Positions 3,495-23,761 of a DNA stretch of 39,874 nucleotides are shown here, one piece after another. The DNA lies in contig NZ_JAAHHG010000009.1 in assembly GCF_010692555.1 (NCBI RefSeq), positions 1-39,874 on the forward strand. Reading direction: 5' to 3'. The DNA comes from Okeania sp. SIO3B5 (GTDB lineage: Bacteria > Cyanobacteriota > Cyanobacteriia > Cyanobacteriales > Microcoleaceae). The notes below the pieces were generated by a model. It was given only the letters and a program-made list of their open reading frames with translations, did no database searches and was not told the origin of the DNA. Position 1 is the stretch's first letter, and each line of letters starts with the position of its first letter. The position numbers and the translations under genes were made by a program.

Positions 3495-5411
3495 TTATTT
3501 GATTGTATTTTTGCTTTGACGTTTCACCAACACCATATCTTGGGAGTCTTGCAGATGCCAGTTAACATTTGATTGAGATGGAGTACCCTCTAGTAATAAC
3601 AAACGGAATGGATCTAAACAAACCTGCCAAGGAAAAGAACGATTTTTAATTTGATTCCATTTTTCCTTAAATACTTCTGCTTGCAAATCATAGTCAAAAG
3701 CATTTCTTGCAGGTCGATATAATTTCAAATATAAAGTCATCCGATGTTGAGTTTCGCTGGTTGCTGCTAACCAACAGGGAAAAGTATTAGGTTGGTTTGC
3801 TTCCTCCGTAAAAGTAATCTGGTGAGCGCGAATACCAACGTGAGAAAAATGTTCTGGAATGGGTTCGAGAATATCAAGACTGCATCCCCACTCAACAGCT
3901 TCTACTTTACGATCATCAATAATTACTGCTTGAGAAAAGTTCTTACAACCAGTTAACTGAGCAACTCTTACACTGGTAGAATATTCAAAAATGTCATGTT
4001 TGACACCGTGAGTCAGAATAATTCCGTCATCGACAACCAAGAGATTTTGGCAAATTCGGTAAGCTTCCTCTAAGTTGTGAGTCACCAATAAAGTCACTCC
4101 TTGATAATTTTCTAGGGTGGCAATAACCAATGTTTCAATCTGATGGCGCAGGTGGGTATCTAATGCGGAAAAAGCTTCATCCAACAACAAAGCATCGGGT
4201 TGACTTGCTAATGCTCGTGCTAAAGCTACCCGTTGTTGCTGGCCTCCGGAAAGTTCTGCTGGATATCGTTTGCCATATCCTGGTAACTGTACTGCGGATA
4301 GATAAGCTTCCACTTGTTGTTTAATCTCTGTGGACGATAAACCTTTGGGCAAACCAAAAGCAATATTTTTAGCTACAGTCATGTGGGGGAAGAGAGCATA
4401 ATTTTGAAATAGATAACCAATACGGCGATCGCGACTGGGCAAATTAATTTTCTGTTGCGAATCAAATAATACTCGCCCATTTAAAACAATTCGTCCTCTT
4501 GTGGGAGTTTCTAAACCAGCAACGCAACGTAAAATCATACTTTTACCAGCACCAGATCCTCCTAATAACCCCAATGGTTTGTTATTAGCATTGAAACAAA
4601 CATCCAAAAGAAACCCAGGCAATTTTTTCTGGATATCTACTAATAGATTTTGTGAGTTTGTGTGGGAGTTTAGTCTCAACGGTTGTGTTTTGACTACGGG
4701 TACAGAACGCACATCTACAATTTGCTTTTCTGTTTTTTTTGCCCTACGTTTTTTGATTTTAGATTCTGACCAATAGTTGACACCAGTTATTACCCCTAAA
4801 GATATGGCTAAAATTACTAATACCCAGGCAAACGCTTCATTCATATTCCCACTTTCGGAAGCGAAGAAAATAGCTATCGGAATAGTTTCTGTTTTCCCAG
4901 GAATGCTACCTGCCAACATTAAAGTAGCGCCAAATTCACCGAGCGATCGGGCAAAAGCTAATAATGTCCCGGCAATAATTCCTGGTTTTGCCAAGGGTAA
5001 CAAAATTCGCCAAAATACAGTCCATTCAGAAGCACCTAAAGTTCTAGCACAAGCAAGGAGACTGGTGTCAATTTGAGTAAAAGCTGCCAATGATGTTTTG
5101 TACATTAGGGGAAATGAGACAACGGTGGCTGCTATTACGGTGGCAGGCCAGGTAAAAATTAATGTTATCCCCAGAGATGAGAGAATATGGCCGAGGGGGC
5201 CGTTTCTACCAAATAATAGTAGTAATAGAAAACCTGTTACGGTTGGAGGCAATACTAGGGGAGATGTTAAGATGGCGTCAATTATCCCTTTGCCTTTACC
5301 GCGATATCCGAGCATCCAACGTGCTGCTGTGATGCCCAGGAAAAAGGTGATTACTGTAGTGACTGCTGCAGTTTTTAAAGATATCCAAGCGGGAGATAGT
5401 TCAAAGTTCAT
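3495..5411 (-). CDS. modBC: ModBC fusion: molybdate ABC permease fused to ATPase
   Basis: One 638-residue chain joins two parts of the high-affinity molybdate importer. Residues 1-225 are a ModB permease with several membrane helices and the ATPase-contacting loop ARTLGASEWTVFWRILLP. A basic linker (KIKKRRAKK) leads to ModC: Walker A GGSGAGKS at about 284-291, signature LSGGQQQRVALARALA near 386, Walker B LLLDEAFSALD near 407, switch His in LLVTHNLEEA. The tail after about residue 490 fits a ModC accessory (TOBE-like) region. ModB-ModC fusions are known in cyanobacteria. The binding protein modA is 8.6 kb away, with oppositely oriented genes between, so the transporter genes are not one operon. 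Specificity for Mo over W is inferred from family resemblance and from nearby modA and Mo-storage genes. Confidence 0.93.
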   Translation of the reverse strand: MNFELSPAWISLKTAAVTTVITFFLGITAARWMLGYRGKGKGIIDAILTSPLVLPPTVTGFLLLLLFGRNGPLGHILSSLGITLIFTWPATVIAATVVSFPLMYKTSLAAFTQIDTSLLACARTLGASEWTVFWRILLPLAKPGIIAGTLLAFARSLGEFGATLMLAGSIPGKTETIPIAIFFASESGNMNEAFAWVLVILAISLGVITGVNYWSESKIKKRRAKKTEKQIVDVRSVPVVKTQPLRLNSHTNSQNLLVDIQKKLPGFLLDVCFNANNKPLGLLGGSGAGKSMILRCVAGLETPTRGRIVLNGRVLFDSQQKINLPSRDRRIGYLFQNYALFPHMTVAKNIAFGLPKGLSSTEIKQQVEAYLSAVQLPGYGKRYPAELSGGQQQRVALARALASQPDALLLDEAFSALDTHLRHQIETLVIATLENYQGVTLLVTHNLEEAYRICQNLLVVDDGIILTHGVKHDIFEYSTSVRVAQLTGCKNFSQAVIIDDRKVEAVEWGCSLDILEPIPEHFSHVGIRAHQITFTEEANQPNTFPCWLAATSETQHRMTLYLKLYRPARNAFDYDLQAEVFKEKWNQIKNRSFPWQVCLDPFRLLLLEGTPSQSNVNWHLQDSQDMVLVKRQSKNTIK

Positions 5412-5610
5412 GGTTGATGTTAAGAGAAAAAATTAGGTTGGGTTTGGGTAAAAAATTGTAGGGACAGTTTCAGGTCAAAAGTGTTAGTAGTTGTTAATTT
5501 ACCCATACCTAATTTATGCAGTAGTTTTCTGTTCATCAAGAACTATCCTATAGCAGAGAACAGGGAACACCGGAGCAGGGAACAGTGGCAAAAGCTTTTC
5601 TCTGTCTTAG

Positions 5611-5868
5611 GTCATATCATGTTCGGTTAAATACTTATATCATGTCCGGATAATTAGTGATAAAAAACTTTCTCCTTCTTTTCTTCTTTCTTCCCTCCTG
5701 AATTCAGAATTCAGAATTCAGAATTCTGAGTGTTTATTTATAACTGTTCAACCGGACATGATATTATACTTTGGCAGAGGGAAGGCAGCTATGCTGCTAT
5801 GCTGAAGGAAGAGAGCAAAGTTTGAAGTGAAGAGGTTTTTTATAACTAATCATCCGAAGATGATATTA
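5611..5868. mobile_element. MITE family A, composite copy upstream of modBC
   Basis: Partial and full left ends (TCATATCATGTTCGG near 5612; TATATCATGTCCGG near 5637) and right ends (ACCGGACATGATATTA ending at 5766; CATCCGAAGATGATATTA ending about 5868) show two nested or tandem copies. The interior has GAATTCA heptamers and a block GGAAGGCAGCTATGCTG that also occurs in the copy at 20235. The 5412-6214 spacer contains this element, an inverted-repeat element at 6095-6203 and no gene. Confidence 0.7.
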
Positions 5869-6094
5869 TTTCGTTCTTACAAGAGAGAGAAAATTGTCAC
5901 AGATGAACAATACGAAAGTAACTCTTGTGTTATAATTTTTTTAATTATCCCGATAAAAATCAAAAAAACGAACCCGTCTCTACCATTGCAACATTTTAGA
6001 TGTGTCACGGCAGTAGATTAGGTTCTGATCAAAACTTGAGACTAAGATAAGGGAGCGATCGCATAAGCTTGCTCCCATACTGAAATGGGCTTCC

Positions 6095-6203
6095 ATTACA
6101 GCGCTTTTCAAATTGATGAACCACATCGTCATAACCAAAACCCAGTAGGGACGTTGCATGCAACGTCCCTACTGTGGTCTACTGAAATGAAAACCGCTGT
6201 AAT
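6095..6203. mobile_element. Inverted-repeat element C (ATTACAGC ends), copy 1
   Basis: Left end ATTACAGCGCTTTTCAAATT continues into GATGAACCACATCGTCATAA. The right end is GGTCTACTGAAATGAAAACC followed by GCTGTAAT. The copy at 16233-16404 has the same two arms in opposite orientation around a different core, so this is a transposable or invertible family. The core here is the dyad GACGTTGCATGCAACGTC. Confidence 0.7.
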
Positions 6204-6214
6204 GTTTTCTAGAA

Positions 6215-7006
6215 TTAGACAGAATCAGGATCTACCCCTAACTCTTTTAGTTTAGCCGCCAGACGTTCAGCACGTTGCTGTTCTTGTTCAGCACGTTGAC
6301 GTTCTTGTTCAGCACGTTGCTGTTCTTGTTCAGCACGTTGACGTTCTTGTTCAGCTACTTCTCCTGGCAATAATACCAAGTTTCCTTCAGAGTCATAAAA
6401 TCGTAACCACACTGCCGACTCTCGCAGAATAGTTCCTTCCCAAGTACCTAACCATAGCCCTAACCTCTGGCACCACAACCATCCCCGATCATTCCGCTGT
6501 AACTCCTGATATTGATGATTTACCAGATGCCATCCCTGTAATGAGTTCTTGTCAAATGGATTAAAGATAAAATAATTTGGGGTGCGGAATGTTTGTTCGT
6601 AAATATCCTTTTTACTGCCAATGTCTACACTAGCAGTTGAAGGAGAAGTAAGTTCAACTATCGCATCTGGATAACGACCTGCTTCTTCCCAAACTACCCA
6701 TCCTTGACGATCTGTATTGTCTTCAACATTCAAGACCACAAAGAAATCAGGGCCTTTGAAATCGCGATTTCTCGCTTGAATGCTACTGTAATAAATAAAC
6801 ATATTGCCACCGACAAAAAAGTCGCTGCGGTCTGACCAATGTTGATACAACGAATCAATCAGAAGATTCATGGCAATACGGTGACGTTTGCTTTCCAAGA
6901 GTTCTCCATCATCAAAGATTAAGTCTGTAGGTGGCATGGGTGGTTCCCAGTCGGGAGTTACTTCGGTGAGTAACTCGTCGGTTTTGGGAGATGTTTCTGT
7001 TGTCAT
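6215..7006 (-). CDS. Uma2 family (DUF820) restriction-endonuclease-like protein
   Basis: The 263-residue protein follows the Uma2 layout: KGPDFFVVLNVED (acidic catalytic segment), DAIVELTSPSTASVDIGSKKDIYEQ with the E-x-x-S and later lysine typical of the PD-(D/E)XK fold, and YFIFNP. Its tail from about residue 215 is a highly charged coiled coil made of repeated EQERQRAEQEQQRA units, ending KLKELGVDPDSV, a common cyanobacterial ending. These genes occur in dozens of copies in filamentous cyanobacteria and their role is not established. The start is supported by GGAGGGG about 8 bases upstream of the ATG. The repeat DNA encoding the coiled coil is likely prone to length change. Confidence 0.9.
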   Translation of the reverse strand: MTTETSPKTDELLTEVTPDWEPPMPPTDLIFDDGELLESKRHRIAMNLLIDSLYQHWSDRSDFFVGGNMFIYYSSIQARNRDFKGPDFFVVLNVEDNTDRQGWVVWEEAGRYPDAIVELTSPSTASVDIGSKKDIYEQTFRTPNYFIFNPFDKNSLQGWHLVNHQYQELQRNDRGWLWCQRLGLWLGTWEGTILRESAVWLRFYDSEGNLVLLPGEVAEQERQRAEQEQQRAEQERQRAEQEQQRAERLAAKLKELGVDPDSV

Positions 7007-7063
7007 TATTCGCCCCCTCCGGTTGTATTTTCATTATTTAGAATAGTATAGATTAAAAAATCA

Positions 7064-7120
7064 GGACTTACGCACGTCAAACCAAGAGAACTGGTTTCTT
7101 GTTTAGGTACGCAAGTCCTG
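7064..7120. repeat. AGGACTTACGCA inverted-repeat element, short copy
   Basis: It opens CAGGACTTACGCACG and closes GTACGCAAGTCCTGG, with an inner inverted pair around ACCAAGAGAACTGGTTTCTTG. It is the smallest family member in this window, lying directly upstream of the Uma2 gene. Confidence 0.65.
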
Positions 7121-7131
7121 GAAATGATTTT

Positions 7132-7349
7132 TTTGGCGTTGCTGAATTGAAGTATGAATGCGCGATTTTTTGGTTCTGGTAAAGCCCCCGCGCATCCCCC
7201 ATTCAACAAAAAGCGAAGCATCTTCTGGCTTCCCCCGATCCTGCGGGGGACGGGAGGGGGATAAAAAAGGGGGACTTTTAGAGTTTTATTCCCCCCACGC
7301 ATTGGGGGGTTAGGGGGGCTTGCATCATACCCAGAATCAGCAACGCCAT
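7132..7349. mobile_element. Inverted-repeat element with GGCGTTGCTGA ends
   Basis: The left end TTGGCGTTGCTGAATTG and right end GAATCAGCAACGCCA are inverted copies extending about 25 bases with mismatches. The interior holds C- and G-rich tracts (CCCCCGATCCTGCGGGGG and similar) that can fold. There is no transposase. Together with flanking AGGACTTACGCA elements (7064-7120 and 7366-7436) it fills the 7007-7444 spacer. Confidence 0.65.
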
Positions 7350-7365
7350 TTTTTTTAGGCTTTTT

Positions 7366-7436
7366 AGGACTTACACAGAAACTGGGTTATGATACGAAAT
7401 TTTGTAATTTGAAAAATAATTGGGTGCATAAGTCCT
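7366..7436. repeat. AGGACTTACGCA-type inverted-repeat element, diverged copy
   Basis: It runs from AGGACTTACACAGAAAC to GGGTGCATAAGTCCTGA and ends just downstream of the mosA-like stop codon. Confidence 0.5.
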
Positions 7437-7444
7437 GATTTTTT

Positions 7445-8275
7445 TTAGCGATGAACAATAGTTCCTACGTGTTCACCATTTACTGCCGCAATAATATTAT
7501 CTGGGTCAAGACCATTAACAATCTGAACCTGGCTTATTTGTCGGGAATAATCAAGTAAATCTAACAAAATGCGTTCAAATGGTAAGCTAGCAAAATCACC
7601 TTTTCTCACTTCCTCTGTGGAAATTTCTGAGATAAAGTTTGCATCTTTATTGATATTAGGATCTTGATCGTAAAGTCCATTTACATCTTTAACCAAAGTT
7701 ACACTTTGACACCCAAAACATTCTGCCAATAAAAATGCACCAGAGTCGCTACCATGAGGAGGAATGCGTCCAATAGCAGGAGGATGTTCCCATAATGAAT
7801 ATGGAGGAACTCCTGTAAAAATCACTCCAGGAACACTACGAATAAATAGGGGTAAAAGATGTCCGAAAACTTCTGGAGGAATGGCAACTACCCCGTATGG
7901 AGCTAACAATGCACCGAGAACGTGGGCATTCCCCAAAGCATCTGCTTGAGCTAGTTCTGCTAATACACCAGAAGGCATTCCCAGGTCTAAACCTATGGAG
8001 AAGACATGGCGAGTTCTAGCGCCTCCTCCTGTGCCAATAATTAGCTTTTTTGACTCTAACAAAGTTCCTAATGCGTCACGGACGGGATAAGTAGCACTTC
8101 GTCCTTTATCAAGAATGGAACGCCCTCCTATTTTGACTACATAAGTATCAGGAAGCATCCGAATAACTGGTGCTTCAGTTGATTTTTGTACCTCTTTGTC
8201 GAGTAAGCTTTCTCGCATTAACAGGGAGTCAAGATGATGTCGGCGATCGCCATTGCCTTCTAATGCAGTTGTCAT
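7445..8275 (-). CDS. mosA: MosA-like molybdenum storage protein subunit
   Basis: The 276-residue protein belongs to the amino-acid-kinase (UMP-kinase-like) fold: VVKIGGRS at 46-53, GTGGGARTRH at 81-90, KDVNGLYDQDP at 196-206 and the ending NGEHVGTIVHR. Within that fold it resembles the Azotobacter vinelandii molybdenum storage protein rather than UMP kinase: HVFSIGLDLG at 90-99, TGVPPYSLW at 154-162, RIPPHGSDSGAFLLA at 170-184. The Azotobacter protein is an alpha3-beta3 hexamer that packs molybdate into polyoxomolybdate clusters at the expense of ATP. HVFSIGLDLG and SGAFLLA look closest to the alpha subunit as I recall it. The segment IPPHGSDSG has Gly where the partner gene keeps Arg. It lies downstream of the mosB-like gene on the same strand, with a 199-bp repeat-filled spacer. 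The alternative, a divergent UMP kinase, seems unlikely. Confidence 0.85.
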   Translation of the reverse strand: MTTALEGNGDRRHHLDSLLMRESLLDKEVQKSTEAPVIRMLPDTYVVKIGGRSILDKGRSATYPVRDALGTLLESKKLIIGTGGGARTRHVFSIGLDLGMPSGVLAELAQADALGNAHVLGALLAPYGVVAIPPEVFGHLLPLFIRSVPGVIFTGVPPYSLWEHPPAIGRIPPHGSDSGAFLLAECFGCQSVTLVKDVNGLYDQDPNINKDANFISEISTEEVRKGDFASLPFERILLDLLDYSRQISQVQIVNGLDPDNIIAAVNGEHVGTIVHR

Positions 8276-8285
8276 AATAATTACC

Positions 8286-8474
8286 TATGTTCAGTTATCA
8301 GTTATCAGTCATCAATCATCAGTCATAGCACTTGGCATTTAGATACCTGAGATTGCTCAATAGTCAAACTTAGCCAAAGATTACTTTTAACTTTTGACTT
8401 TTAACTTCTATTATTACTTTTGACTTTTATTGACTTTTGACTTTTGACTTTTGAATTTTGAATTTTAACTTCTA
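8286..8474. repeat. Heptamer-rich spacer between the two Mo-storage genes
   Basis: The spacer contains CAGTTAT/CAGTCAT runs at about 8290-8326 and a long array of ACTTTTG heptamers at about 8390-8470 (ACTTTTGACTTTTGACTT). Such short tandem repeats are typical of cyanobacterial intergenic DNA. They separate two genes that would be expected to be translated at matched levels. Confidence 0.7.
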
Positions 8475-9314
8475 TCAGTTATCAGCATAAATTTCTGTGC
8501 CGATATCTTCACCATTAAGAGCGCGAGTTAAGTTGCCTTTTACCAATCCATTAATGATGCGAATAGAACGGCGGTTCTTAGCAATTTCCATGAAGTCTAA
8601 CACAGGACGTTCTACCACCACATCTTGTAAGTCTAACTCTTTTAATTCCTTCACAGAAATTCTTTTGATAAACTTAGCACTGGGATCTTTTTTCGGATCA
8701 GCAGTATATAACCCTTCCTCATCTTTGATGAAAATCATTGATTTTGCACCAAAAACTTCACTAACTAAATAGGAACCAGTATCAGTTCTATGGGGAGGAA
8801 TACGACCAATTTTAGGATTTTCATGCCAAAATGTATAGGGAGGCATTCCAAAGAAAATCACAGCTCCTCTTTCTTTTAAATAGTGTGCCATTTGCCCAAA
8901 CTGCACTGGTTCAATAAAAGGAATACCATGCTTTGCTAGCAGATAATAAAGTATCCGAGCGTTCTGCATACTCACAAAAGTTCCTAATACACTTAAAACT
9001 CCTGTAGGTAGTCCTAAATCTACTCCCACACTGTAAGCATGACGAGCGCGAGTACCTCCACCCGTACCAAGAATCATTTCATGGCTGCCTAAATTTTCGG
9101 CTATTTCTTCTATTAAAGGAAATACAGCAGCTTTACCTCTATCTATAAAGCTTTGTCCGCCAATTTTCAATACATTTGCACTGGGTAAAATCTTAATCGG
9201 TGCTTCTTTTTCTGTTTCAGATAAAACTTGTTGGTTACTGAGGGAACCTGTTACTAAAGATTTACCTAATTCCGAAAGTAATTGACTGTCTTTGATTGGA
9301 GTTTGCAAATTCAT
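8475..9314 (-). CDS. mosB: MosB-like molybdenum storage protein subunit
   Basis: The 279-residue protein has the same amino-acid-kinase architecture as its neighbour: VLKIGGQSFIDRGKAAVFPL at 48-67, GTGGGTRARHAYS at 83-95, LAKHGIPF near 126-133, FFGMPPYTFW at 154-163, RIPPHRTDTGSYL at 171-183, FIKDEEGLYTADP near 195-207 and INGLVKGNLTRALNGEDIGT near the end. These strings match, segment by segment, my recollection of the Azotobacter vinelandii MosB (beta) subunit (KIGGQSVIDRGRAAVYPL, GTGAGTRARH, GMPPYKLW, VNGLVPGNLTRALAGEHVGT). A heterohexamer with the MosA-like product is therefore expected. The two paralogues share the fold but are clearly different subunits. The gene is first in the pair; a promoter probably lies in 9315-9600. 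Confidence 0.88.
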   Translation of the reverse strand: MNLQTPIKDSQLLSELGKSLVTGSLSNQQVLSETEKEAPIKILPSANVLKIGGQSFIDRGKAAVFPLIEEIAENLGSHEMILGTGGGTRARHAYSVGVDLGLPTGVLSVLGTFVSMQNARILYYLLAKHGIPFIEPVQFGQMAHYLKERGAVIFFGMPPYTFWHENPKIGRIPPHRTDTGSYLVSEVFGAKSMIFIKDEEGLYTADPKKDPSAKFIKRISVKELKELDLQDVVVERPVLDFMEIAKNRRSIRIINGLVKGNLTRALNGEDIGTEIYADN

Positions 9315-9354
9315 AAGTGTTCAGTAATTGAGATTTAATTTTTTAGTGTTTGAT

Positions 9355-9621
9355 TTATTGTTTAGGAGGAATAAAAAAGCCTTCAAGGATGTAAGCTTCT
9401 TCTGATTCAATGGAGTTTTCTAAGCTATTAAATTTAGTTTTTGCCCAAATTTCTAATTCTGTGAGAACAGATTCTTTAACGGCTATTGGCGGATTAATTC
9501 CAGCTAATCCTGCTTTTTGCTGCCAGCTCTCAATAGATTGTTTCGGGGTATTATTTACTTGCCAACTACTAACTTTAATAGGTTCAATTTTTAATGAATA
9601 AGGAAAGTCTATTACAAGCTC
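9355..9621 (-). pseudogene. Open frame without start codon upstream of mosB-like gene
   Basis: The minus strand is open for 88 codons and reads protein-like (for example KVSSWQVNNTPKQSIESWQQ, then a segment ending AKTKFNSLENSIESEEAYI, stop after IPPKQ). It contains no ATG, GTG or TTG in frame, and a TAA closes it at 9622. Composition resembles the neighbouring coding genes, so I read it as the 3' remainder of a lost gene, or as a gene using a rare start (ATT at KIEPIK). Its 5' end overlaps the start of the plus-strand orphan at 9594. I do not recognise the family. Confidence 0.35.
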
Positions 9622-9926
9622 TTAATGCTGCCATAGCAAAATATAAAGATGAGCCTACAGCAAGAGTTGTTTTTGGTCTGGCAAAACAGGTTTGGCAAAT
9701 TGATTGGACTGTTGCTCCCTTTGATATCCTTAACCACTATCTTGAGTTTGATATCTCTTACTTTTATCGGTTTATGTCAATGGATATCGGGGATGAAGCT
9801 GAAGAACAACAGTTACTTAAAGATTGGATAGATACCAGACATGCTTTAGACAAAGAAGGTAAGAGACGACTACCTCAGTTAGCAGATGAACTAAATCAGT
9901 TACGAGTTGCAGCAAGAAACGCCTAA
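9594..9926 (+). CDS. Hypothetical 110-residue protein
   Basis: Not recognised. It is an acidic, helical-looking, cysteine-free soluble protein with a tryptophan/aromatic middle (QVWQIDWTVAPFDILNHYLE, then FDISYFYRFMSMDIGDEAEE) and a charged C-terminus rich in Leu/Arg/Glu (RRLPQLADELNQLRVAARNA). The ATG at 9594 is the first in frame. It is divergently oriented from the mosBA-like pair, with 279 bp between starts. A good terminator follows, so it is likely its own transcript. Confidence 0.6.
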   Translation: MNKESLLQALNAAIAKYKDEPTARVVFGLAKQVWQIDWTVAPFDILNHYLEFDISYFYRFMSMDIGDEAEEQQLLKDWIDTRHALDKEGKRRLPQLADELNQLRVAARNA

Positions 9927-9951
9927 TTATATTGATTATATTAAATAAAGG

Positions 9952-9992
9952 GGGGATTAATGATTTTTATTTGCAATCATAATCCCCTTCTT
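9952..9992 (+). terminator. Rho-independent terminator after the 110-aa gene
   Basis: GGGGATTAATGATT pairs with AATCATAATCCCC (one bulged base) across a short T-rich loop and is followed by TTCTTT. It sits 26 bp past the stop codon of the hypothetical gene. Confidence 0.6.
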
Positions 9993-10118
9993 TATCAATT
10001 ATCAGTTATTAATTTTTTTGAGAGCAATTCACTTTCAAACTCTGTATTGTTAAATATTGATTATTTTCTCTCTGAAGTATTCTAGTTAAATCCTCTATCT
10101 AAATTTTATATAAACTTG

Positions 10119-10466
10119 ATGTCAGTCTTAGGAAAAGTCCTTTTTTTCTACACAATTTCCAATTCCTTTATGGTAATGGCTTGGTATTTACATTTAAAAT
10201 ACTTGAATAATCATCCTTGGTATGTTGCTTCAGTATTAAGTTGGTGTATTGCTTTCTTTGAATATTCACTTCTTATCCCTGCCAACCGGATTGGTTATCC
10301 TGAACTTGGCTTATCAAAATTGCAAATTATACAGATAGGAATGTCCTTAATTGCTTTTATTCCTTTTAGTTTCTTTGTGATGCAAGAACCTATAAAAAAA
10401 GATTATATTTTGGCTTCTATTTGTTTATTAGGAGCGGTTTATTTTATCTTTCGTAATGTTCGTTAA
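10119..10466 (+). CDS. DUF486 / small DMT-superfamily membrane protein
   Basis: The 115-residue protein is almost entirely hydrophobic, with four predicted membrane helices (about 3-20, 30-50, 64-85, 92-110). The strings MAWYLHLKYLNN, LSWCIAFFEYSLLIPANRIGY and LQIIQIGMSL correspond to the conserved DUF486 pattern (AWY-HLK, SW-IAFFEY--PANR-GY, QLKI-QE). The family is related to small multidrug-resistance/DMT transporters; its substrate is unknown. A TTG codon lies directly before the ATG at 10119; I take the ATG. It has no obvious functional link to the molybdenum genes. Confidence 0.85.
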   Translation: MSVLGKVLFFYTISNSFMVMAWYLHLKYLNNHPWYVASVLSWCIAFFEYSLLIPANRIGYPELGLSKLQIIQIGMSLIAFIPFSFFVMQEPIKKDYILASICLLGAVYFIFRNVR

Positions 10467-10487
10467 AAGATAGAGAAAAATCATAAT

Positions 10488-10581
10488 CAGGACTTACGCA
10501 GAACTGCCATATCTAGTAGGGGCGAATGGCTATTAACCCTCTACAGGTAGCGTTTTATCCACAAGTTTGCGTAAGCCCTGA
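10488..10581. repeat. AGGACTTACGCA inverted-repeat element
   Basis: It runs from CAGGACTTACGCAGAAC to GTTTGCGTAAGCCCTGA. The core is GTAGGGGCGAATGGC-type sequence common in spacers of this genome. It lies between the DUF486 gene and the oxidase leader. Confidence 0.65.
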
Positions 10582-10591
10582 TAATCATAAA

Positions 10592-10724
10592 AAATTGTTA
10601 AGTTAATTCCTTAATTTTCACAAATAAAGGCTAATATGACAGAGCGTAAAACTTTGCAATAAATTGTTAAGTTAATTCCTTAATTTCCACAAATAAAGGC
10701 TAATATGACAGAGTGTAGAACTTT
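10592..10724 (+). repeat. 69-bp tandem duplication in the oxidase gene leader
   Basis: A unit starting AAATTGTTAAGTTAATTCC and containing CACAAATAAAGGCTAATATG is present twice head-to-tail (copy 1 from 10592, copy 2 from 10661) with only a few substitutions over about 64 bp. The second copy ends about 50 bp before the oxidase start. It may duplicate a promoter or regulatory site. Confidence 0.85.
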
Positions 10725-10773
10725 AGTAAAACTGTTTTACCCGATAGAACTGTATAAATAGTCTTTAAAGGAA

Positions 10774-12684
10774 ATGATCGAGCCAAATCATCAACAAAAA
10801 GCCTGGGAAAACCCAGAACAAGATACCCAAAAATTAGGGATAAGTAGACGAGTATTTTTAGGAACTGGAATGACTGCTGCTGCTGCTGCCTTCATTCTGC
10901 CTCGTGAAGCGATCGCCAAATCAATCTCTAAAGTTCCATCCTTTACTCTTCCTGAACCTACGCCCTTTTGTTACCCTGATTTTTCCAATCCTACAGACTT
11001 CACAGGAAATGAATTGTGTGTAGGAGAAGGTCAATTAACTCTTCCACAAAATCTGAAAAAGGACTATACTATTGATGTGCGCATTTATAACGATTTAATA
11101 CCTGGACCGACTTTTAGGCGCAATCCAGGGGAAAAGATTGAATTCACATTGATCAATAACCTACCTCCTAACAAGGTGGATAAGGAAACCTGCGACACGT
11201 TGCAACACCAAAATAAACCTGCGTGCTTCAATACCACAACTATGCACTTTCATGGATTGCACGTTTCCCCAAAAAGTAAAAGAGGTGCTGACAACAAAAT
11301 ACTTTTTTCTTCTGATGATGTCTTCGCAGAAGTTGGCCCCGAGGGTCAAACAAATAAATATTGCGTTGCCATTCCTGAATTCCACGCCCCTGGAACTCAC
11401 TGGTATCATTCCCACCGCCACGGTTCGACCGCAATTCAAGCTGCTAATGGCATGGCCGGGGCAATTATTATTCCAGAACCCACAGAAGAGAGAAAATTAG
11501 GGGTAACAGACGAGAATGATAAAATCTGGTTGATTCAGGAAATTCTGGATGTTTCTGATCCAGAAAAGTTCTATACAGCGCGAGGGGACAATACTACAAA
11601 AGTACAATTCCTAGTCAATGGAGAGTACCAACCTACCTTAACTATAGACAATCCTAATACCCTACAAAGGTGGCGGTTTATCAATGCCACGGGAACTCCT
11701 CGCGGACTGATGACTCTTAAGTTATACAAATGTACTGACACAGACGACACCAATACTAAGTGTGACACCTCAAAGTTAGAAGATATGTATCTAATTGCGG
11801 TTGATGGCATTTCTTTCTATGGTAAACCTCCTCAAAAAGTTGGTGCGGATGGTGTGGGTGCTTATAAAGACGGTTGGGAATTGGCCCCAGGAAATAGGGC
11901 TGATTTTCTCGTTAATTTGCCAGCAGGTCTTTATAAAATCGTTAAAGATAATTATCAGAGTGCAAATGTAGGCGCATCGCGGAGAACAACACAAGTGTTA
12001 GCCTACGTCAAAGTTAACGAAGGAACTGATGCCGAAGAAACAATCCCAGAGTGCATTGAGGGGGAATTTCCTTGTTATCTCAGACCTATTGAAGATCAGG
12101 AAATTAAGGTCAGTGGAAAAGGTTCTTTGAATGACCCACAATACGTTAGTTTTGCCGTTAACACTCAAACAAATCCAAGAAAGTACCTTATTGATGGAGA
12201 ACAATACCCTCAAGGAGAGGACTATAATGTGACTCTTGGTACTGCTGAACAATGGGTCTTATCAAATCCAGATTGTACTAACACCAGTAAGCCCTGCAGT
12301 ACAGAAGTAGATCCCGAAGGACTAAAATTAAAAGCAAGATCTCCTCATCCCTTCCACATTCATGTCAATCCCTTTCAAGTAGAGGGTGATAAGATTGATC
12401 CAGATGGAGATGATGAGCCTTCAAATTGGCGTTGGTGGGATACAATTGCTGTTAATCCAGCTAGCAGTGATTGTCCGAATGGAACCAATCTCACCATTCG
12501 TCACCGGTTCTTAGATTTCGATGGAGAATTTGTCCTACACTGCCATATTCTGATTCATGAAGACCAAGGGATGATGACAAATGTCATAGTTAATGGAGAC
12601 GGTGCTGCTCCTTGTGTTATTCTCCCTACCCCTGATTCTTGCCCTTACCCTGCCGCTTCTCCCTGCCCCGAAAACACTGACTGA
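10774..12684 (+). CDS. Tat-exported multicopper oxidase
   Basis: The 636-residue protein begins with a twin-arginine signal (ISRRVFLGTGM at 23-33, then a hydrophobic alanine-rich stretch ending around EAIAKS), so it should be exported folded. All four copper motifs are present in order: HFHGLHV near 157, HWYHSHRHG near 208, HPFHIHVNPF near 525 and HCHILIHEDQGMM near 588. The last includes the type-1 copper Cys and an axial Met. Three cupredoxin domains are implied. Such enzymes oxidise phenolics, bilirubin-like pigments, or Mn(II), Fe(II) or Cu(I) while reducing O2 to water; the substrate cannot be chosen from sequence alone. Several insertions rich in Asp/Thr/Cys (CTDTDDTNTKCDTS) lie between domains. 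AAAGGA precedes the ATG closely. It is a single-gene unit with a terminator at 12731. Confidence 0.93.
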   Translation: MIEPNHQQKAWENPEQDTQKLGISRRVFLGTGMTAAAAAFILPREAIAKSISKVPSFTLPEPTPFCYPDFSNPTDFTGNELCVGEGQLTLPQNLKKDYTIDVRIYNDLIPGPTFRRNPGEKIEFTLINNLPPNKVDKETCDTLQHQNKPACFNTTTMHFHGLHVSPKSKRGADNKILFSSDDVFAEVGPEGQTNKYCVAIPEFHAPGTHWYHSHRHGSTAIQAANGMAGAIIIPEPTEERKLGVTDENDKIWLIQEILDVSDPEKFYTARGDNTTKVQFLVNGEYQPTLTIDNPNTLQRWRFINATGTPRGLMTLKLYKCTDTDDTNTKCDTSKLEDMYLIAVDGISFYGKPPQKVGADGVGAYKDGWELAPGNRADFLVNLPAGLYKIVKDNYQSANVGASRRTTQVLAYVKVNEGTDAEETIPECIEGEFPCYLRPIEDQEIKVSGKGSLNDPQYVSFAVNTQTNPRKYLIDGEQYPQGEDYNVTLGTAEQWVLSNPDCTNTSKPCSTEVDPEGLKLKARSPHPFHIHVNPFQVEGDKIDPDGDDEPSNWRWWDTIAVNPASSDCPNGTNLTIRHRFLDFDGEFVLHCHILIHEDQGMMTNVIVNGDGAAPCVILPTPDSCPYPAASPCPENTD

Positions 12685-12730
12685 AACTTACAGTGTGGTA
12701 GCTAAATTTTTCGTAATTTAGCCATCCAAG

Positions 12731-12762
12731 AGACAGTGAGCTATAATGTTTCACTGTCTTTT
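12731..12762 (+). terminator. Rho-independent terminator of the oxidase gene
   Basis: AGACAGTGA and TCACTGTCT form a perfect 9-bp stem around a loop of about 11 bases, followed by a short T run. It is located 46 bp after the oxidase stop. Confidence 0.75.
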
Positions 12763-12770
12763 CAACTATT

Positions 12771-12910
12771 AGACTTGTCGCTAAATAGATGGAAAAAATC
12801 GCTAAAACTCAAGCAGAGCAATAATTACAAGATCTTTCAAGAACCTAATAGCTGTAATCTTTACATATCAAGGGTTTTCAGGATTTTTTAAGTTATAAAG
12901 CGACAAGTCT
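12771..12910. mobile_element. Inverted-repeat element with AGACTTGTCGCT ends
   Basis: The ends are AGACTTGTCGCT and AGCGACAAGTCT, flanked by TAT/TTA bases. The 140-bp interior is non-coding. It is most simply a MITE. The remaining 12911-13054 spacer holds a CCCCCTTTTAGGGGG dyad and a GATAACT heptamer run ending just before the next gene. Confidence 0.6.
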
Positions 12911-13054
12911 ATTATACTTAAGTGTGAAAAAATAATCTAATGACCGAAAAATAGGGTCAATAGCCCCCTTTTAGGGGGATAAAAGAAATAAACTTCAGTA
13001 TTTCAAGCCTCCCTATTCCATTGAGGTGCTGATAACTGATAACTGATAACTGAA

Positions 13055-13759
13055 ATGACTAGACTTATTTTAAAACAATTCCTTTTAATAGCGATCGCTA
13101 CTTTAGTTTCTTTAACGGTTATTCTGAAAGGGGCGATCGCTCAAGAAATTCAAACGATTATTCCGAATCAAGATAATACCATCATTGAAAGTGCCACGGG
13201 TGTCCTCAGTAATGATCAAGGGCCAATATTATTTGTCGGACGAACGAACCAACCCCAAGATAGTATCAGACGAGGGGTAATTTCTTTTGATATTGCTAAC
13301 GAGATTCCCAGAGGTTCTAAAATTACTTCTGTCACCCTACAATTAACACTCGAAAAAACTCCAGGTGGCGCTCAATCTATTGAATTACATCGACTGCTGA
13401 AAAACTGGGGAGAAGGAAATTCTTTTCATCCAGGAGGTAGGGGCGATCGCTCAACTGAAGGAGATGCTACTTGGATTCATAGTTTCTATAATACTCAATT
13501 CTGGTCAAATCCAGGAGGGGATTTTTCCGAGAGGGTTAGTGCGGTGACAACTGTGGGAGATGAAGGAGTTTATACTTGGGAATCTACTTCAGAAATGGTT
13601 ACCGATCTACAACAATGGTTAGATAATCCTGATGATAATTTTGGTTGGTTACTGTTAGGAAATGAAACTGTTTCAAGGACAGTAAAAGGGTTTGCTAGTT
13701 CGGAAAATCCAGAAGCATCAGCGCAACCACAGTTGAGAGTTACTTATGTTGAAAAGTAG
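13055..13759 (+). CDS. Secreted DNRLRE domain protein
   Basis: This 234-residue protein has a Sec signal peptide (MTRLILKQFLLIAIATLVSL, cleavage after AIAQ near residue 30). The mature part reads as a single DNRLRE-type beta-sandwich: NQDNTIIES, a glycine/arginine segment, RRGVISFDIANEIPRGSKI, ITSVTLQLTLEK, LHRLLKNWGEG, ATWIHSFY, W-x-NPGGDF and a final LRVTYVEK. The domain occurs in exported, often cell-surface or carbohydrate-associated proteins; no catalytic motif is visible. The gene contains four HIP1 octamers in or near it and is preceded by GATAACTGATAACTG heptamers rather than a clear ribosome-binding site. Confidence 0.8.
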   Translation: MTRLILKQFLLIAIATLVSLTVILKGAIAQEIQTIIPNQDNTIIESATGVLSNDQGPILFVGRTNQPQDSIRRGVISFDIANEIPRGSKITSVTLQLTLEKTPGGAQSIELHRLLKNWGEGNSFHPGGRGDRSTEGDATWIHSFYNTQFWSNPGGDFSERVSAVTTVGDEGVYTWESTSEMVTDLQQWLDNPDDNFGWLLLGNETVSRTVKGFASSENPEASAQPQLRVTYVEK

Positions 13760-13781
13760 TAGAAGCGATCGCATAAATTGT

Positions 13782-14042
13782 TATATCAAATCCGGTTAAA
13801 TAACCTCACAATCAATAGACATCTCCAGAAAAGAGGGAGTAGGGAGTAGGGGAAAGAATCAATTATCGCACAGAAATCATCAATTATTTCCCCAGTTTCC
13901 TACTCCTTATATAGAATCCGGTTATACAGTATATATTTATAATTCTATCCACACTTTCTCGCCTTCAATCTCTCAACCTCCCCTTTTCCCCACACTTCCC
14001 ACCCCCAAATATATGATAAGCATTCAACCGGATTTGATATTA
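13782..14042. mobile_element. MITE family B (TIR with CAAATCCGG) overlapping the modA stop
   Basis: The left end TATATCAAATCCGGTT and right end CAACCGGATTTGATATTA are inverted copies. The ends match family A except that CATGTCC is replaced by CAAATCC, and both arms carry the same change. The interior includes part of the TAGACATCTCC element and pyrimidine-rich sequence. The last three bases (TTA, 14040-14042) are the modA stop codon on the opposite strand. Confidence 0.75.
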
Positions 14043-14855
14043 CTCTCTCTTTTCTAGTGTAATAAAACCATATTTTTCAAACACAGTTTTTGCCTCTGGA
14101 GTAAACATAAATTCTTCTAATTGTTTAGCTGCTTCAATATTTTTACTATCTTTAATTACTGCAATGGGATAAACTACTGGTGTATGAGATTTTTCCGGTG
14201 CATTAGCAACTATTTTTACTGTGTTTGAAGCGTTAGTATCTGTACGATAAACAATGCCAGCATCAACATTTCCTGTGGCGACATAATTAAGTACTTGACG
14301 CACATTTTTAGCAAAAACTATTTTCGGTTCAACAGTCTCATAAATACCTAAAGAAGTTAAGACTTCTTTGCCATATTTTCCTGCGGGAGAGGTTTCTGGT
14401 TCGCCAATGGATATGTTTTTAATAGTGTCTTTTGTTAAGTCTTGAAATGTGTTAACTGCAGCGGTATTTTCTGTAGGAACTATTAACACCATTTGATTTT
14501 TCAGGAGGTTGCGACGGCTTTCATCTATTATTAGACCTTTTTCTTGCAAAATATTAATATGGGAAGGAGATGCGGATATAAATAAATCTACTGGTGCTCC
14601 TTGTTCAATTTGTTGTCGTAAAGAACCAGAAGAAGATAAGTTTAAAGTTAAAGAAGTATTAGTATTTTTTTGCTCATAAATAGGCTCTATCTCTTCCATT
14701 GCATCTTTGAGGCTAGTTGCTGCTGAAACTGTTAAATTTATTGTTGAAGCGGTAGACTCAGAAGATGAATTATCCCTAGTTTGGCTACAACTAATTGTTA
14801 ATAAATAAGAAAGTATGGCCATACAAATTAAGACCAGAATTCGATTTTTTTTCAT
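14040..14855 (-). CDS. modA: ModA, periplasmic molybdate-binding lipoprotein
   Basis: The 271-residue protein starts at the ATG at 14855, which has GGAG about 10 bases upstream; a TTG five codons earlier is less likely. Residues 1-25 form a lipoprotein signal with the lipobox ending LTISC. The mature protein has ModA landmarks: LTVSAATSLKDAMEEI, LNLSSSGSLRQQIEQGAPVD, LFISAS, MVLIVPTEN, SIGEPETSPAGKYGKEVL and DAGIVYRTD. The Ser residues near the first two motifs are expected oxyanion ligands. It delivers molybdate (or tungstate) to the ModBC permease. It is separated from modBC by the storage-protein genes and several unrelated plus-strand genes. The C-terminus runs to the edge of a MITE that supplies the stop codon. 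Confidence 0.93.
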   Translation of the reverse strand: MKKNRILVLICMAILSYLLTISCSQTRDNSSSESTASTINLTVSAATSLKDAMEEIEPIYEQKNTNTSLTLNLSSSGSLRQQIEQGAPVDLFISASPSHINILQEKGLIIDESRRNLLKNQMVLIVPTENTAAVNTFQDLTKDTIKNISIGEPETSPAGKYGKEVLTSLGIYETVEPKIVFAKNVRQVLNYVATGNVDAGIVYRTDTNASNTVKIVANAPEKSHTPVVYPIAVIKDSKNIEAAKQLEEFMFTPEAKTVFEKYGFITLEKRE

Positions 14856-14864
14856 ATCTATATA

Positions 14865-15055
14865 CTCCAATTTTTAATTTTTATCAAAAGTAAGTGTCAG
14901 TCTAGTAGGGTGTGTTAGCGGTAGCGTAACGCACCGTCTTCACGGAAGTATAACCAACTCCACAGATTAGCTGATAATCAATTATATTATGTCGTGCGTT
15001 ACGGCTAACGCCTAACGCACCCTACAAAAGCTCCAATTTTTAATTTTTATCAAAA
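14865..15055. repeat. Duplicated 25-bp modA leader flanking a repeat
   Basis: CTCCAATTTTTAATTTTTAT followed by CAAAA occurs at 14865-14889 and again exactly at 15031-15055. The 141 bp between them contain the GTAGGGTGTGTTAGCGG / CGCACCCTAC inverted repeat. The first copy includes the modA ribosome-binding site, so an insertion with long flanking duplication is the simplest reading. The remainder to 15345 shows only small dyads and no gene. Confidence 0.75.
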
Positions 15056-16531: not shown

Positions 16532-16882
16532 TTAACTACAAGGTACTCCAGTTGGGGTGCATCCTCCTGCTTGGAAAGATTTTCCACAACTACAAGTTTC
16601 TGTGGCGTTGGGATTAATAAACTTTAAACCGCTTTCAGTTAAACCTTCAATGTAGTCAACTACAACTCCTTCTAGTAAAGGCGCACTTTTTGGGTCAATA
16701 AAAATCTGCAAGTTATCTTTGTGTAGTAGCAAGTCATCTGCTTTCGGAGCATTGGCAATATTTAAGGCATACTCATAACCACTGCAACCACCATCCACAA
16801 CAGAAATGCGGATGCCTTGATTTGATTCCTTCAGGAATTTGGTAAGTTGAGAAGCGGCTTTTTCTGTTAAACTTATAGTCAT
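16532..16882 (-). CDS. hesB: HesB, A-type iron-sulfur carrier
   Basis: The 116-residue HesB/IscA/ErpA-family protein has the three conserved cysteines: GGCSGYEY near residue 33 and CSCGKSF near 97-99. An extra C-terminal cysteine pair (GGCTPTGVPCS) is a feature I associate with nif-linked HesB proteins. The family carries Fe-S clusters or iron to apo-targets. It lies between fdxH and hesA as in other cyanobacterial nif clusters. Unusually, 600 bp of mobile DNA separate it from hesA. No clear ribosome-binding site precedes the ATG. Confidence 0.92.
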   Translation of the reverse strand: MTISLTEKAASQLTKFLKESNQGIRISVVDGGCSGYEYALNIANAPKADDLLLHKDNLQIFIDPKSAPLLEGVVVDYIEGLTESGLKFINPNATETCSCGKSFQAGGCTPTGVPCS

Positions 16883-17121
16883 AATTTTGAAGACAAATAA
16901 TTTTAGACTTACCGATAATTACCCAGATAGGCGACACCCGCCTGTTGTCTGGCCTCAGCAATGGACTTAGGAAATTACTGGAACGGTGCGATCGCGCTTT
17001 ACAGAACTGTCTGAGACTAAGCTAGTAGAAATATTGCACCCTGATTTTTGAAATTTCAGTTTCAGTTTCAGCGCGAAAGCATATTGTATAAATATCACCT
17101 TTCCTCGGAATTTCCTATTTT

Positions 17122-17440
17122 TGACACTCTCACCGTTAAATCAGAGATTATAACGGGAGATTCTTGTTTCACAGATTCTTAACTAGGTAACAAATCAAAC
17201 AAGTTAAGTTGTACCCCCGTCAGACCATCTCCACAAGCTTTTTATCGGACGGTGTGCCCCACCGCCATTAGCTCTCTATTTATGATACTGGATTGGTTCG
17301 CTACCGCTCAATTAATTGGCTGGTTGAAATTTATGAGAGGCTGTCTGCATGGGTTTCCCGCGCAGTTTATACGCCCCGTCTCACCGCTATAATTTTTAAT
17401 TTAGCGGAAGTCCTCTCTCAGCATTATCTATAGGCTAAAC
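17122..17440 (-). ncRNA. TnpB guide-RNA-like relic inside the nif cluster
   Basis: On the minus strand this 300-bp stretch ends with the right-end signature of IS605/IS607 omegaRNAs: a block GGCGGTGGGGCACACC, then GCTTGTGGAGATGG, then a terminal hairpin TCTCCCGTTATAA...TTTAACGGTGAGA closing with GTGTCA at 17122. The same order occurs at 33836-34013, 31311-31470 and 36450-36731. No tnpA or tnpB accompanies it. The bases after GTGTCA on the minus strand (17121 to 17102, AAAAATAGGAAATTCC...) would be the guide position. It lies in the hesB-hesA spacer in the same direction as the nif genes, so it may be transcribed with them. Confidence 0.5.
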
Positions 17441-17483
17441 CAAAGATTTAACTATAAACTGTTCGCAGTGATAACTTCTATGG

Positions 17484-18266
17484 TTAAATTTTTACCACTT
17501 CCTCCTCAGCTTTTAACTCTTTGCTGAGGGAACCACAAACTGGACAGTCTGGATCGTGGTAAGGGCGAAGTTTAGAGAATTCCATGGCATCCAAATCCAT
17601 TGTCAGCAGTTGTGACCACAAGGGTTTACTAAATCCTGTAATCTGTTTGATTGCTTCTGAAGCTGCTAGACAAGCTAGTGTTCCAGAAACTACACCCAAG
17701 ACTCCAAACCCACGTCGGTCCCATTCTGGTTTTTCTGGGAAGAGACAAGACAAACAGGGAGTTTTACCAGGAACTATGGTAGTTAAATAAGCTTCCATGC
17801 TATTCATAGCAGCTTCCACCATTGGTTTGCGCCAACGTACACAGGCAGCATTAAGTAAATTCCGTTCGTCAAAGTTGTGAGCGCAGTCGAGGGCAATATC
17901 TGCCGACTGTACTAATGTGTCTGCATTTTCAGCAGTGACATATTCAGGTACAGCTTCGATTTCAACATCTGGGTTAATGGCAGATAGAGTTTCTTTAGCT
18001 TTGTCTACTCGCAGTTTACCCACCCAATCATCTGTCATCAAGATTTGACGATTCATGTCATCAAGGCGTAGTTCCCCACCTCTGACTAATATCAGCTTCC
18101 CGACACCTGCTACTGCTAAATACAGTGCTACTGTGCCACCCAACCCACCAACTCCATTTACCACTGCTGTAGTTGATTTGAGTCGTTGTTGTGCTTCTTT
18201 ACCAAAACCGGGAAGCATGATTTGGCGACTATAACGTTCTAATTCTTTGGGTGTGAGGTCGGACAA
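17484..18266 (-). CDS. hesA: HesA, ThiF/MoeB-like adenylyltransferase
   Basis: This 260-residue E1-like protein contains RYSRQIMLPGFGKEAQQ near 12-28, the nucleotide-binding glycine loop VNGVGGLGGTVALYLA near 35-50, and the zinc cysteines CLSCLFP near 168-174 and CPVCGSL near 241-247. Family members adenylate the C-terminus of a small sulfur carrier. HesA is required for, or stimulates, cyanobacterial nitrogen fixation, probably in metallocluster sulfur or molybdenum handling. The start is a TTG at 18266 preceded by AAGGAG at suitable spacing; no ATG is available before the conserved core. It begins 13 bp after nifW, so the two are cotranscribed. Confidence 0.9.
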   Translation of the reverse strand: MSDLTPKELERYSRQIMLPGFGKEAQQRLKSTTAVVNGVGGLGGTVALYLAVAGVGKLILVRGGELRLDDMNRQILMTDDWVGKLRVDKAKETLSAINPDVEIEAVPEYVTAENADTLVQSADIALDCAHNFDERNLLNAACVRWRKPMVEAAMNSMEAYLTTIVPGKTPCLSCLFPEKPEWDRRGFGVLGVVSGTLACLAASEAIKQITGFSKPLWSQLLTMDLDAMEFSKLRPYHDPDCPVCGSLSKELKAEEEVVKI

Positions 18267-18279
18267 ATTTTTTTGCTCC

Positions 18280-18591
18280 TTACTCAGCAGTTATTTCTGT
18301 TAATTTAACCACGTCGTTATGTTCTTTTTGGAATACTGGAAATACTTTTTGTTCTTGAGCGTTAGATGTCAAGAAAGTTTGATAAGCTGACTCTAATGCT
18401 GTTTTATATTCTGTCAATTTTTCAGCTTCTGCCAGTTCTTTTTTTTCGTCAACTTCTGCAATTGCTACAGAAAACATTTTTAATATATGGAGGCGATTTA
18501 CGTTGACTGCTGTTTGGTCGTAGGGAATGTCAAAAAAGCTGAGGAAGTCTTCTGCATCTACGAGCTTTTGGAAATCTGTTAATGTCTTCAT
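18280..18591 (-). CDS. nifW: NifW, nitrogenase-stabilising protein
   Basis: The 103-residue acidic protein matches NifW in size and layout: LTDFQKLVDAEDFLSFFDIP at 4-23, a helix with VNRLHILKMFS near 31-41, and a lysine/glutamate-rich C-terminal half ending KHNDVVKLT-like. NifW associates with MoFe protein and is thought to protect it from oxygen damage. It is followed closely by hesA. The 500-bp spacer to the upstream DUF269 gene is occupied by a dispersed repeat, so nifW may need its own promoter. Confidence 0.9.
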   Translation of the reverse strand: MKTLTDFQKLVDAEDFLSFFDIPYDQTAVNVNRLHILKMFSVAIAEVDEKKELAEAEKLTEYKTALESAYQTFLTSNAQEQKVFPVFQKEHNDVVKLTEITAE

Positions 18592-18845
18592 TTGATGAAC
18601 CCTAAATTAATTAGATAAAGTAGTGCCGCTACGCGGAAATTAAAAGTCAAAATTCAAAAGTATTGATTTGTAATTGCTTGAGGATTTTGTAACTGGTCAG
18701 TTATTTCCGCAATCCTACAGTAGTGGCTTTTTCTATTTGTTAGTATAGGTACAAATCTTCTTTTTTTCGCCTACTTTCAATTTTTTTTAATATTTGTGTG
18801 CAAAAAAAAATACTACTGTTTTAGGAAGAGAGGTTGTTAGATATT

Positions 18846-19016: not shown

Positions 19017-19093
19017 TATCAATTATCAATTATCAATTTCTGAAAAAATATGGTTCTAACTTTCCTCTCTAAATATTTAGAAAAAATTACTGC

Positions 19094-19567: not shown

Positions 19568-19571
19568 AGTT

Positions 19572-20358: not shown

Positions 20359-20406
20359 AAACCTAAAACCTACCACCTAAAACCTACCACCTAAAACCTA
20401 CCACCT

Positions 20407-23717: not shown

Positions 23718-23761
23718 GTTTGTATAAAAATTGGAGCCGATCGCTGTTCAATTTCCATCAC

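Follow-up and report, generated by a model that had tools for sequence, protein, structure and literature searches.

The stretch of DNA analyzed here (the window, 39,874 nucleotides (nt) long, contig NZ_JAAHHG010000009.1 of assembly GCF_010692555.1) comes from the cyanobacterium Okeania sp. SIO3B5, and it includes two neighboring genes, g1 and g2, related to the two subunits, MosB (beta) and MosA (alpha), of the molybdenum (Mo) storage protein MoSto of Azotobacter vinelandii. An earlier reading made from the letters alone, which we call the sequence-only reading, had proposed two such genes at 7445-8275 and 8475-9314, and both are there as open reading frames on the minus strand. It had also placed the pair between a ModBC fusion and ModA, and this is correct as to position, but between g1 and modA there are four genes on the plus strand (9594-13759). 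The pair and the molybdate uptake genes, with the term window-type standing for the kind of MoSto pair found here, are as follows:

3495..5411, minus strand: ModB-ModC fusion, molybdate permease and ATPase (TIGR02141 modB, 252.3 bits, cut-off 182.6)
7445..8275, minus strand: g2, 276 amino acids (aa), predicted MosA-orthologous subunit of a window-type MoSto pair, with P133, F144 and S160 and with its own H139 and H164
8475..9314, minus strand: g1, 279 aa, predicted MosB-orthologous subunit of the same pair
14040..14870, minus strand: ModA, molybdate-binding protein (TIGR01256, 215.9 bits, cut-off 62.5), with a possible ATG start at 14855

The proposed kinship with the Mo storage protein holds. 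For g1, the best sequence matches in the PDB are A. vinelandii MoSto beta (277 bits) and alpha (185 bits), and the best uridine monophosphate (UMP) kinase scores 44.5 bits; for g2 the corresponding scores are 240, 200 and 28.6 bits. The g1 protein is 51% identical to A. vinelandii MosB and 39% to MosA, and g2 is 42% identical to MosA and 46% to MosB (the MosA reference sequence is that of PDB 6gu5_A, with 275/275 residues matching). Of the MoSto motifs that the sequence-only reading had quoted, g1 has all four, while g2 carries divergent forms of them: GTGGGARTRH, GVPPYSLW, RIPPHGSDSG and NGLDPDNIIAAV.

The folds agree. AlphaFold2 single-chain models have a mean predicted local distance difference test score (pLDDT) of 81.3 for g1, from an alignment of 42 sequences, and of 84.8 for g2, from 45 sequences. 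A Foldseek search returns MoSto beta as the best match of both models (E 8e-31 for g1 and 8e-28 for g2), and the best UMP kinase comes far behind (2e-13 and 1e-12). Thus, the closest solved fold for both models is that of MoSto, and not that of another amino-acid kinase. The ratio of nonsynonymous to synonymous substitution rates (dN/dS) of g1 and g2 relative to four relatives is between 0.04 and 0.23 (dS is saturated for one of them, locus L009), and both genes are under purifying selection.

Orthology and spread of the pair

A genome scan identified 314 related loci, and the locus counts given here cover the best 80 of those 314. Going by record titles, these 80 loci belong to at least 12 bacterial phyla plus one micrarchaeon; single phylum labels may be wrong because many loci come from metagenome-assembled genomes (MAGs). 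The sequence-only reading described the storage protein as known mainly from Azotobacter and other proteobacteria; the relatives of the pair are not mainly proteobacterial and occur in many phyla. Two family members, with g1 first, are present in 77/80 loci. The exceptions are L028 and L072, which end at a contig edge, and L073, which has one member. At the Bradyrhizobium locus L059, g2 is split into two overlapping frames.

Within cyanobacteria the distribution is patchy. The pair appears in 4/386 genomes of a draw from the phylum, two of these (G016 and G050) having very divergent pairs, in 4/61 genomes of the family, and in 2/5 within the genus itself; Okeania has it, and so does one MAG that is named Trichodesmium (L008). 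In searches of an open-access library, judged by titles and abstract openings, we find no description of a cyanobacterial MoSto or of a wide MoSto family.

We evaluated how the four kinds of subunit relate to each other using trees. In the most careful one, an unrooted tree of 59 sequences, MosA and the g2-type sequences are on one side and MosB and the g1-type sequences on the other, with a split support of 100/100. This tree has no outgroup, and the 27 rows dropped from the original 86 are 5 outgroups and both genes of 11 loci (L012, L027, L034, L055, L058, L068, L070, L074, L081, L088 and L089). Two alternatives were tried on it. An independent duplication, in which g1-type and g2-type form one clade, costs 69.5 log units and is rejected with a p-value in the approximately unbiased test (p-AU) of 4.6e-5. 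A derivation of both genes from MosB, to which the raw scores of both are nearer, is also rejected (g2-type with MosB, p-AU 7e-6). The split and these two rejections together imply that the alpha/beta duplication predates the separation of the classic (Azotobacter-like) and window-type kinds. By this reconstruction, the orthology holds subunit by subunit, with MosB as the ortholog of g1 and MosA as that of g2.

Two more trees include UMP kinases as outgroups, and in both the kinases fall outside of the family. The sequence-only reading had asked for a check of this kind: the two proteins cluster separately with MosA and with MosB in the tree of 59 sequences, and the outgroup trees do not place them with PyrH. 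In the first outgroup tree, g2-type and MosA join at 94, and g1-type and MosB at 96, values for which the four genes of L088 and L089 are excluded from both groups. The second, with 67/86 rows, gives no clean split: the MosB side has a support of 88/76, the MosA side is not one clade, with MosA and g2-type joining at the root without resolution, and the g2 genes of L088 and L089 appear on the MosB side. Both trees place the window-type sequences in well-supported groups separate from those of the classic MosA and MosB, and for either subunit the cyanobacterial window-type members come together in a single group, with support 99 in the first tree and 100/91 and 100/100 in the second. Window-type g1 proteins are mostly 49-60% identical to MosB; window-type g2 proteins are about 40-51% identical to MosB and 36-47% to MosA.

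One genome, that of Bradyrhizobium centrolobii (G441), has a classic and a window-type pair together (L098 and L101). The coexistence of both kinds in one genome suggests that they are not interchangeable.

Genes around the pair

Genes for molybdate uptake are repeatedly found as neighbors. We observe modA or modB within 10 kb of the pair in 39/71 window-type loci, in 33/57 of those where at least one side extends for 5 kb or more, and in 7/10 cyanobacterial loci. The chance expectation is roughly 1/71 loci, assuming 1-3 mod operons per 4.5 Mb and independent loci. These and the other neighbor counts are partly circular because the mod, methyltransferase, ABC-2 and oxidase models were built from the same loci; representatives of the neighbor models were checked with Pfam or NCBIfam. 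In the window, the ModC half of the fusion scores 183 bits, below the modC cut-off of 285. No Moco (molybdenum cofactor) or other riboswitch at the locus is among the 3 Rfam hits obtained in the six sources searched.

The remaining features of the window are:

6215..7006, minus strand: Uma2-family protein (PF05685), between g2 and ModBC, probably a bystander
9370..9600, minus strand: 3' remnant of an S-adenosylmethionine (SAM) methyltransferase gene; an alignment of 9371-9599 with the intact gene falls on the gene's 3' end
9594..9926, plus strand: 110-aa protein that matches neither Pfam nor NCBIfam models at E 0.001
10116..10466, plus strand: DMT_6 membrane protein (PF04342), probably a bystander
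10774..12684, plus strand: multicopper oxidase (Pfam Cu-oxidase_2/3)
13055..13759, plus strand: DNRLRE-domain protein (NF033679), probably a bystander
16532..30187, minus strand: nif block, with HesB/IscA-like, HesA/MoeB-like, NifW, NifX-associated, NifX, NifEN fusion, NifK, NifD, NifH and NifU

The nif block had been described as a complete Mo-nitrogenase set, and it is not. The nifB gene of this genome lies on a different contig (C49), whose end falls within the nifS region; nothing in the window corresponds to the nifS region of the Okeania SIO1I7 cluster; and the window NifU is shortened, starting at position 49/290 of its model with the N-terminal part missing. At about 30187, homology to the SIO1I7 nif cluster stops at this shortened NifU, and rplS follows. 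The break is either a rearrangement or a chimeric assembly join. Further along, at 32147-33830 on the plus strand, fragmented IS605/OrfB-like transposon genes occur among the ribosomal protein genes.

The proximity of nif to the pair is not a general property either. In Okeania SIO1I7, the nif block is beside the pair, on the same contig and about 21 kb apart. In Okeania SIO3I5, nifH is on another contig than the pair, and the 19.5 kb from g1 upstream to the contig end show no nif or modA homology, which on the upstream side rules out a mere contig break as the reason for the separation. In genome G143, nif is 1.5 Mb away. Thus, nif linkage is not conserved among relatives, and instead of the nitrogenase-dedicated locus that had been proposed we find a linkage to molybdate uptake. 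As for co-occurrence, nifH is over the cut-off in 12/80 carrier genomes (7/10 cyanobacteria, 4 Bradyrhizobium and 1 Methylococcaceae). The other 68/80 have no nifH over the cut-off; many of these are MAGs of unstated completeness, so that some of the misses may be due to incomplete genomes. For cyanobacteria, 9/12 window-type carriers (including the genome of the window and G143) have nifH, compared to 59/386 in the phylum draw, or 9/14 when G016 and G050 with their divergent pairs are added. Fisher tests, which treat related carriers as independent, give 9e-6 and 6e-5, respectively. In this organism, service to nitrogenase is plausible.

Immediately upstream of g1 is what remains of the methyltransferase. 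The gene is whole at this position in two other Okeania loci (L006 and L007) and in the Trichodesmium locus L008. In the window about the last 77 codons are left (88% identity over query residues 189-265), and the remnant joins the 110-aa gene via a 7-base overlap; this is either a real deletion or an assembly join. No second copy is found in the same genome, where the next matches are 23-28% identical. Of the window-type loci with room for it, 36/66 have the methyltransferase next to g1 on its upstream side, on the same strand and no more than 700 bp away, and it is somewhere in the locus for 10/10 cyanobacterial loci. Three representative methyltransferases have no NCBIfam model over its cut-off.

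Directly downstream of g2, an ABC-2 ATPase is present in 15/63 loci (a strict count; a looser one of 48/80 is inflated by ModC-like proteins) and a multicopper oxidase in 7/63. As an example, the order in Methylomonas L048 is methyltransferase, g1, g2, ABC-2 ATPase, ABC-2 permease, modA, modB, modC. In 19/71 window-type loci, a multicopper oxidase homologue occurs no farther than 10 kb from the pair. In the proteobacterial loci L023, L024, L035, L038, L044 and L054 the oxidase is at most 40 bp from the pair, and those of L023 and L044 are CueO-like, below the CueO cut-off. A copper-molybdenum link is possible. A homologue of the 110-aa protein is near the pair in 10/10 cyanobacterial loci; the one in L006 has no Pfam match, and we detect no homologue in the stretch taken around the G143 pair.

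Metal site and function

We consider it probable that g1 and g2 encode a second type of Mo storage protein, g1 its beta-type and g2 its alpha-type subunit, in the form of an ATP-loaded (alpha-beta)3 cage fed by ModABC that would keep its cargo as oxo-clusters and release it to Mo enzymes. ModABC would import molybdate, and the g1-g2 cage would take it up at the cost of ATP; the cargo, Mo or possibly tungsten (W), would be held inside as oxo-clusters, in a pocket with a ligand set other than that of Azotobacter; and the stored Mo would be released on demand to Mo enzymes, here probably including nitrogenase. The role is best read as general Mo homeostasis, probably with nitrogenase as one of its clients in this organism. 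What carries this reading is the orthology of both subunits, the MoSto fold of the single-chain models, the order of the pair, the purifying selection, the mod linkage, and a lysine at the nucleotide site.

For the analysis of individual residues we call typical the rows that remain after setting apart the divergent loci L070, L074, L076, L081, L088 and L089, that is, 69/75 g2 rows and 73/79 g1 rows. The KIGG lysine of the nucleotide site is kept in 69/69 typical g2 and in 79/79 g1 rows. The residues diagnostic of each subunit are kept as well: a MosA-like His114 and Arg17 in 69/69 typical g2, and a MosB-like Gln49 and Glu192 in 99-100% of g1.

The metal site is where the pair departs from A. 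vinelandii. Parts of two structural reports describe a Mo8 cluster held by His-alpha156 and Glu-alpha129, and a W3 cluster held by three His-alpha140 (PMC8154434, PMC4504029). At the position of Glu129, the typical g2 have Pro in 69/69 (P133 in the window); at that of His140, they have Phe in 68 and Ile in 1 (F144); and at that of His156, Ser in 63 and Ala in 6 (S160). None of the 69 has Glu129, His140 or His156, and none has a His anywhere at 156-158. All this weighs against a storage function, as do three observations on the neighborhood: 32/71 window-type loci have no modA or modB in reach, 24 of them with 5 kb or more on one side; the methyltransferase, so often found upstream, is truncated in the window itself; and storage alone does not account for the repeated presence of methyltransferase, ABC-2 transporter and multicopper oxidase genes nearby.

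Other residues of the loops concerned are near-invariant in typical g2, and two new histidines appear in these loops, one at the MosA-135 position in 69/69 typical g2 (H139 in the window) and one at the MosA-160 position in 67/69 (H164). In g1, the equivalent of His140 is present in 0/73 typical rows, and a Glu occupies the MosA-129 position in 73/73 (E135). Judging from their position, the conserved g1 Glu and the two near-invariant g2 His, all in the same loops, are likely replacement ligands. Because the known ligands are absent, any clusters must be held differently from those in Azotobacter, and the polyoxomolybdate storage of A. vinelandii that the sequence-only reading had in mind cannot simply be transferred to this branch.

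The divergent g2 of L070, L074, L076, L081, L088 and L089 also lack Glu129, His140 and His156. Among 8 classic MosA rows (the L080 alpha gene was left out by a length or score filter), Glu129 is present in 6, His140 in 8 and His156 in 7, and Pseudonocardia L082 has a partial set. Given the divergent sequences without the ligands and the partial set in L082, the ligands known from Azotobacter seem to have been acquired later, within a single branch.

An unlikely alternative is that g1 and g2 form an enzyme with the amino-acid-kinase fold, one that belongs to a Mo-linked biosynthetic cassette and makes or modifies a metal-binding small molecule or cofactor instead of storing Mo. It would account for the methyltransferase (36/66) upstream and the ABC-2 ATPase and oxidase downstream, and for the loss of the Azotobacter ligands. 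But no NCBIfam kinase model is over its cut-off, both genes are orthologous to storage-protein subunits, and the pair is kept without an intact methyltransferase next to it: that gene is cut short in the window and non-adjacent in 30/66 loci (including Bradyrhizobium, where L059 has the split g2).

We give similarly low credence to a MoSto of the Azotobacter type, one that would store polyoxomolybdate by the established chemistry and supply the adjoining nitrogenase. Orthology to both subunits, the presence of modA, modBC and nif in one window, and the nifH in 9/12 cyanobacterial carriers are all as this account expects. Against it, the covalent and three-fold-axis ligands are missing in 69/69 typical g2, the window-type sequences have groups of their own in the trees, distinct from the classic subunits, relatives do not consistently keep nif beside the pair, and 68/80 carriers have no nifH over the cut-off.

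It is very improbable that the cargo is mainly tungstate, or any oxyanion of this sort, rather than molybdate. The divergent pairs L109 and L110 (of G016 and G050) adjoin genes for TupB-like permeases, L109 is also near a TupA-like gene, and A. vinelandii MoSto itself stores W; but Tup-specific models are below their curated cut-offs, the transporter of the window is of the ModABC type with ModA and ModB over theirs, and mod-like genes are linked in 39/71 loci. Hardly credible, finally, is that g1 and g2 are ordinary PyrH UMP kinases, for which there are Pfam AA_kinase matches, the public annotation of Azospirillum classic MosB, and an own assembly showing no other PyrH, but against which g1 scores 62.7 bits with the archaeal model (cut-off 158) and 30.5 bits with the bacterial one (cut-off 243.9), with g2 lower still, both fall outside the kinases in the trees, and a separate PyrH is over the cut-off in 7/8 cyanobacterial carriers, all but the own assembly.

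Returning to a second type of Mo storage protein, there is a wider proposal that we hold tentatively, as somewhat more doubtful than probable. The window-type pairs may represent a second, bacteria-wide class of ATP-driven metal-oxide cages, with a site made of the beta-type Glu and the shifted alpha-type His, working in a cassette with the methyltransferase and with the ABC-2 transporter or a copper oxidase; and they may be the missing Mo store behind the high Mo quotas measured in the field for those marine diazotrophic cyanobacteria that carry them.

The interest of the pair is that it is widespread, that it differs at the known metal site, and that it could serve marine diazotrophic cyanobacteria as a Mo store. 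The literature, in the portions cited, describes MoSto as rare (PMC3627308) and without known homologues in databases (PMC6448029). In our analysis, the family of which classic MoSto is a single branch has members under record titles from at least 12 bacterial phyla. As most carriers have no nifH over the cut-off, a storage function in them would shift Mo storage from a nitrogenase speciality to general Mo homeostasis. To chemists, the window-type pair would offer a naturally occurring cage with other ligands. Trichodesmium in the field is rich in Mo, and no Mo storage protein is named for marine cyanobacteria in the portions cited of PMC3440940 and PMC3627308; together, these make g1 and g2 a testable candidate for a Mo store.

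Comparison with known systems

UMP kinases (PyrH) are like g1 and g2 in having the amino-acid-kinase fold, and unlike them in scoring far lower, in falling outside in the trees, and in being a separate gene in 7/8 genomes examined. The genome of the window is the one in which we find no PyrH, probably due to an assembly gap. On the Azospirillum plasmids of L104 and L105, a classic MosB is annotated as uridine (monophosphate) kinase, beside a gene annotated as "molybdenum storage protein subunit alpha."

Mop proteins are small and unrelated to MoSto. For some cyanobacteria of fresh and coastal waters, the Mop protein, or molbindin, is named as the Mo store, and Mop proteins bind molybdate itself, without clusters, according to the part of PMC3627308 used here.

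Classic MosAB pairs are found on Azospirillum plasmids, as the second pair of B. centrolobii, in Pseudonocardia, and in some actinobacterial and proteobacterial MAGs. They are homologous to the pairs studied here and, in Azospirillum, also have the beta-type gene before the alpha-type one. Unlike window-type pairs, they reach an identity of 64-89% with MosB and of 59-79% with MosA and largely keep the ligands; no methyltransferase is found at L078, L080, L082, L083 and L085, and mod genes are present at 2/5 of these loci.

The MoSto of the Azotobacter type is a closed (alpha-beta)3 cage that takes up to about 100 Mo, with ATP-dependent loading and pH-dependent release. For the A. vinelandii protein, the consulted sections of the literature report that ATP is needed for loading and that Mo is given to the synthesis of the iron-molybdenum cofactor (FeMo-co) in vitro (PMC6448029), and that W can be stored as well (PMC6448029, PMC4504029). 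The window-type pair is like A. vinelandii MoSto (PDB 2ogx, 4f6t, 4ndo and 6gu5) in having two orthologous subunits, the same fold, and the KIGG lysine, the residue altered in the Kb42S variant of PDB 6ris. It is unlike it in that Glu129, His130, His140, His156, His157 and His158 are all replaced in g2, and in that the window type has conserved residues of its own, H139 and H164 in g2 and E135 in g1.

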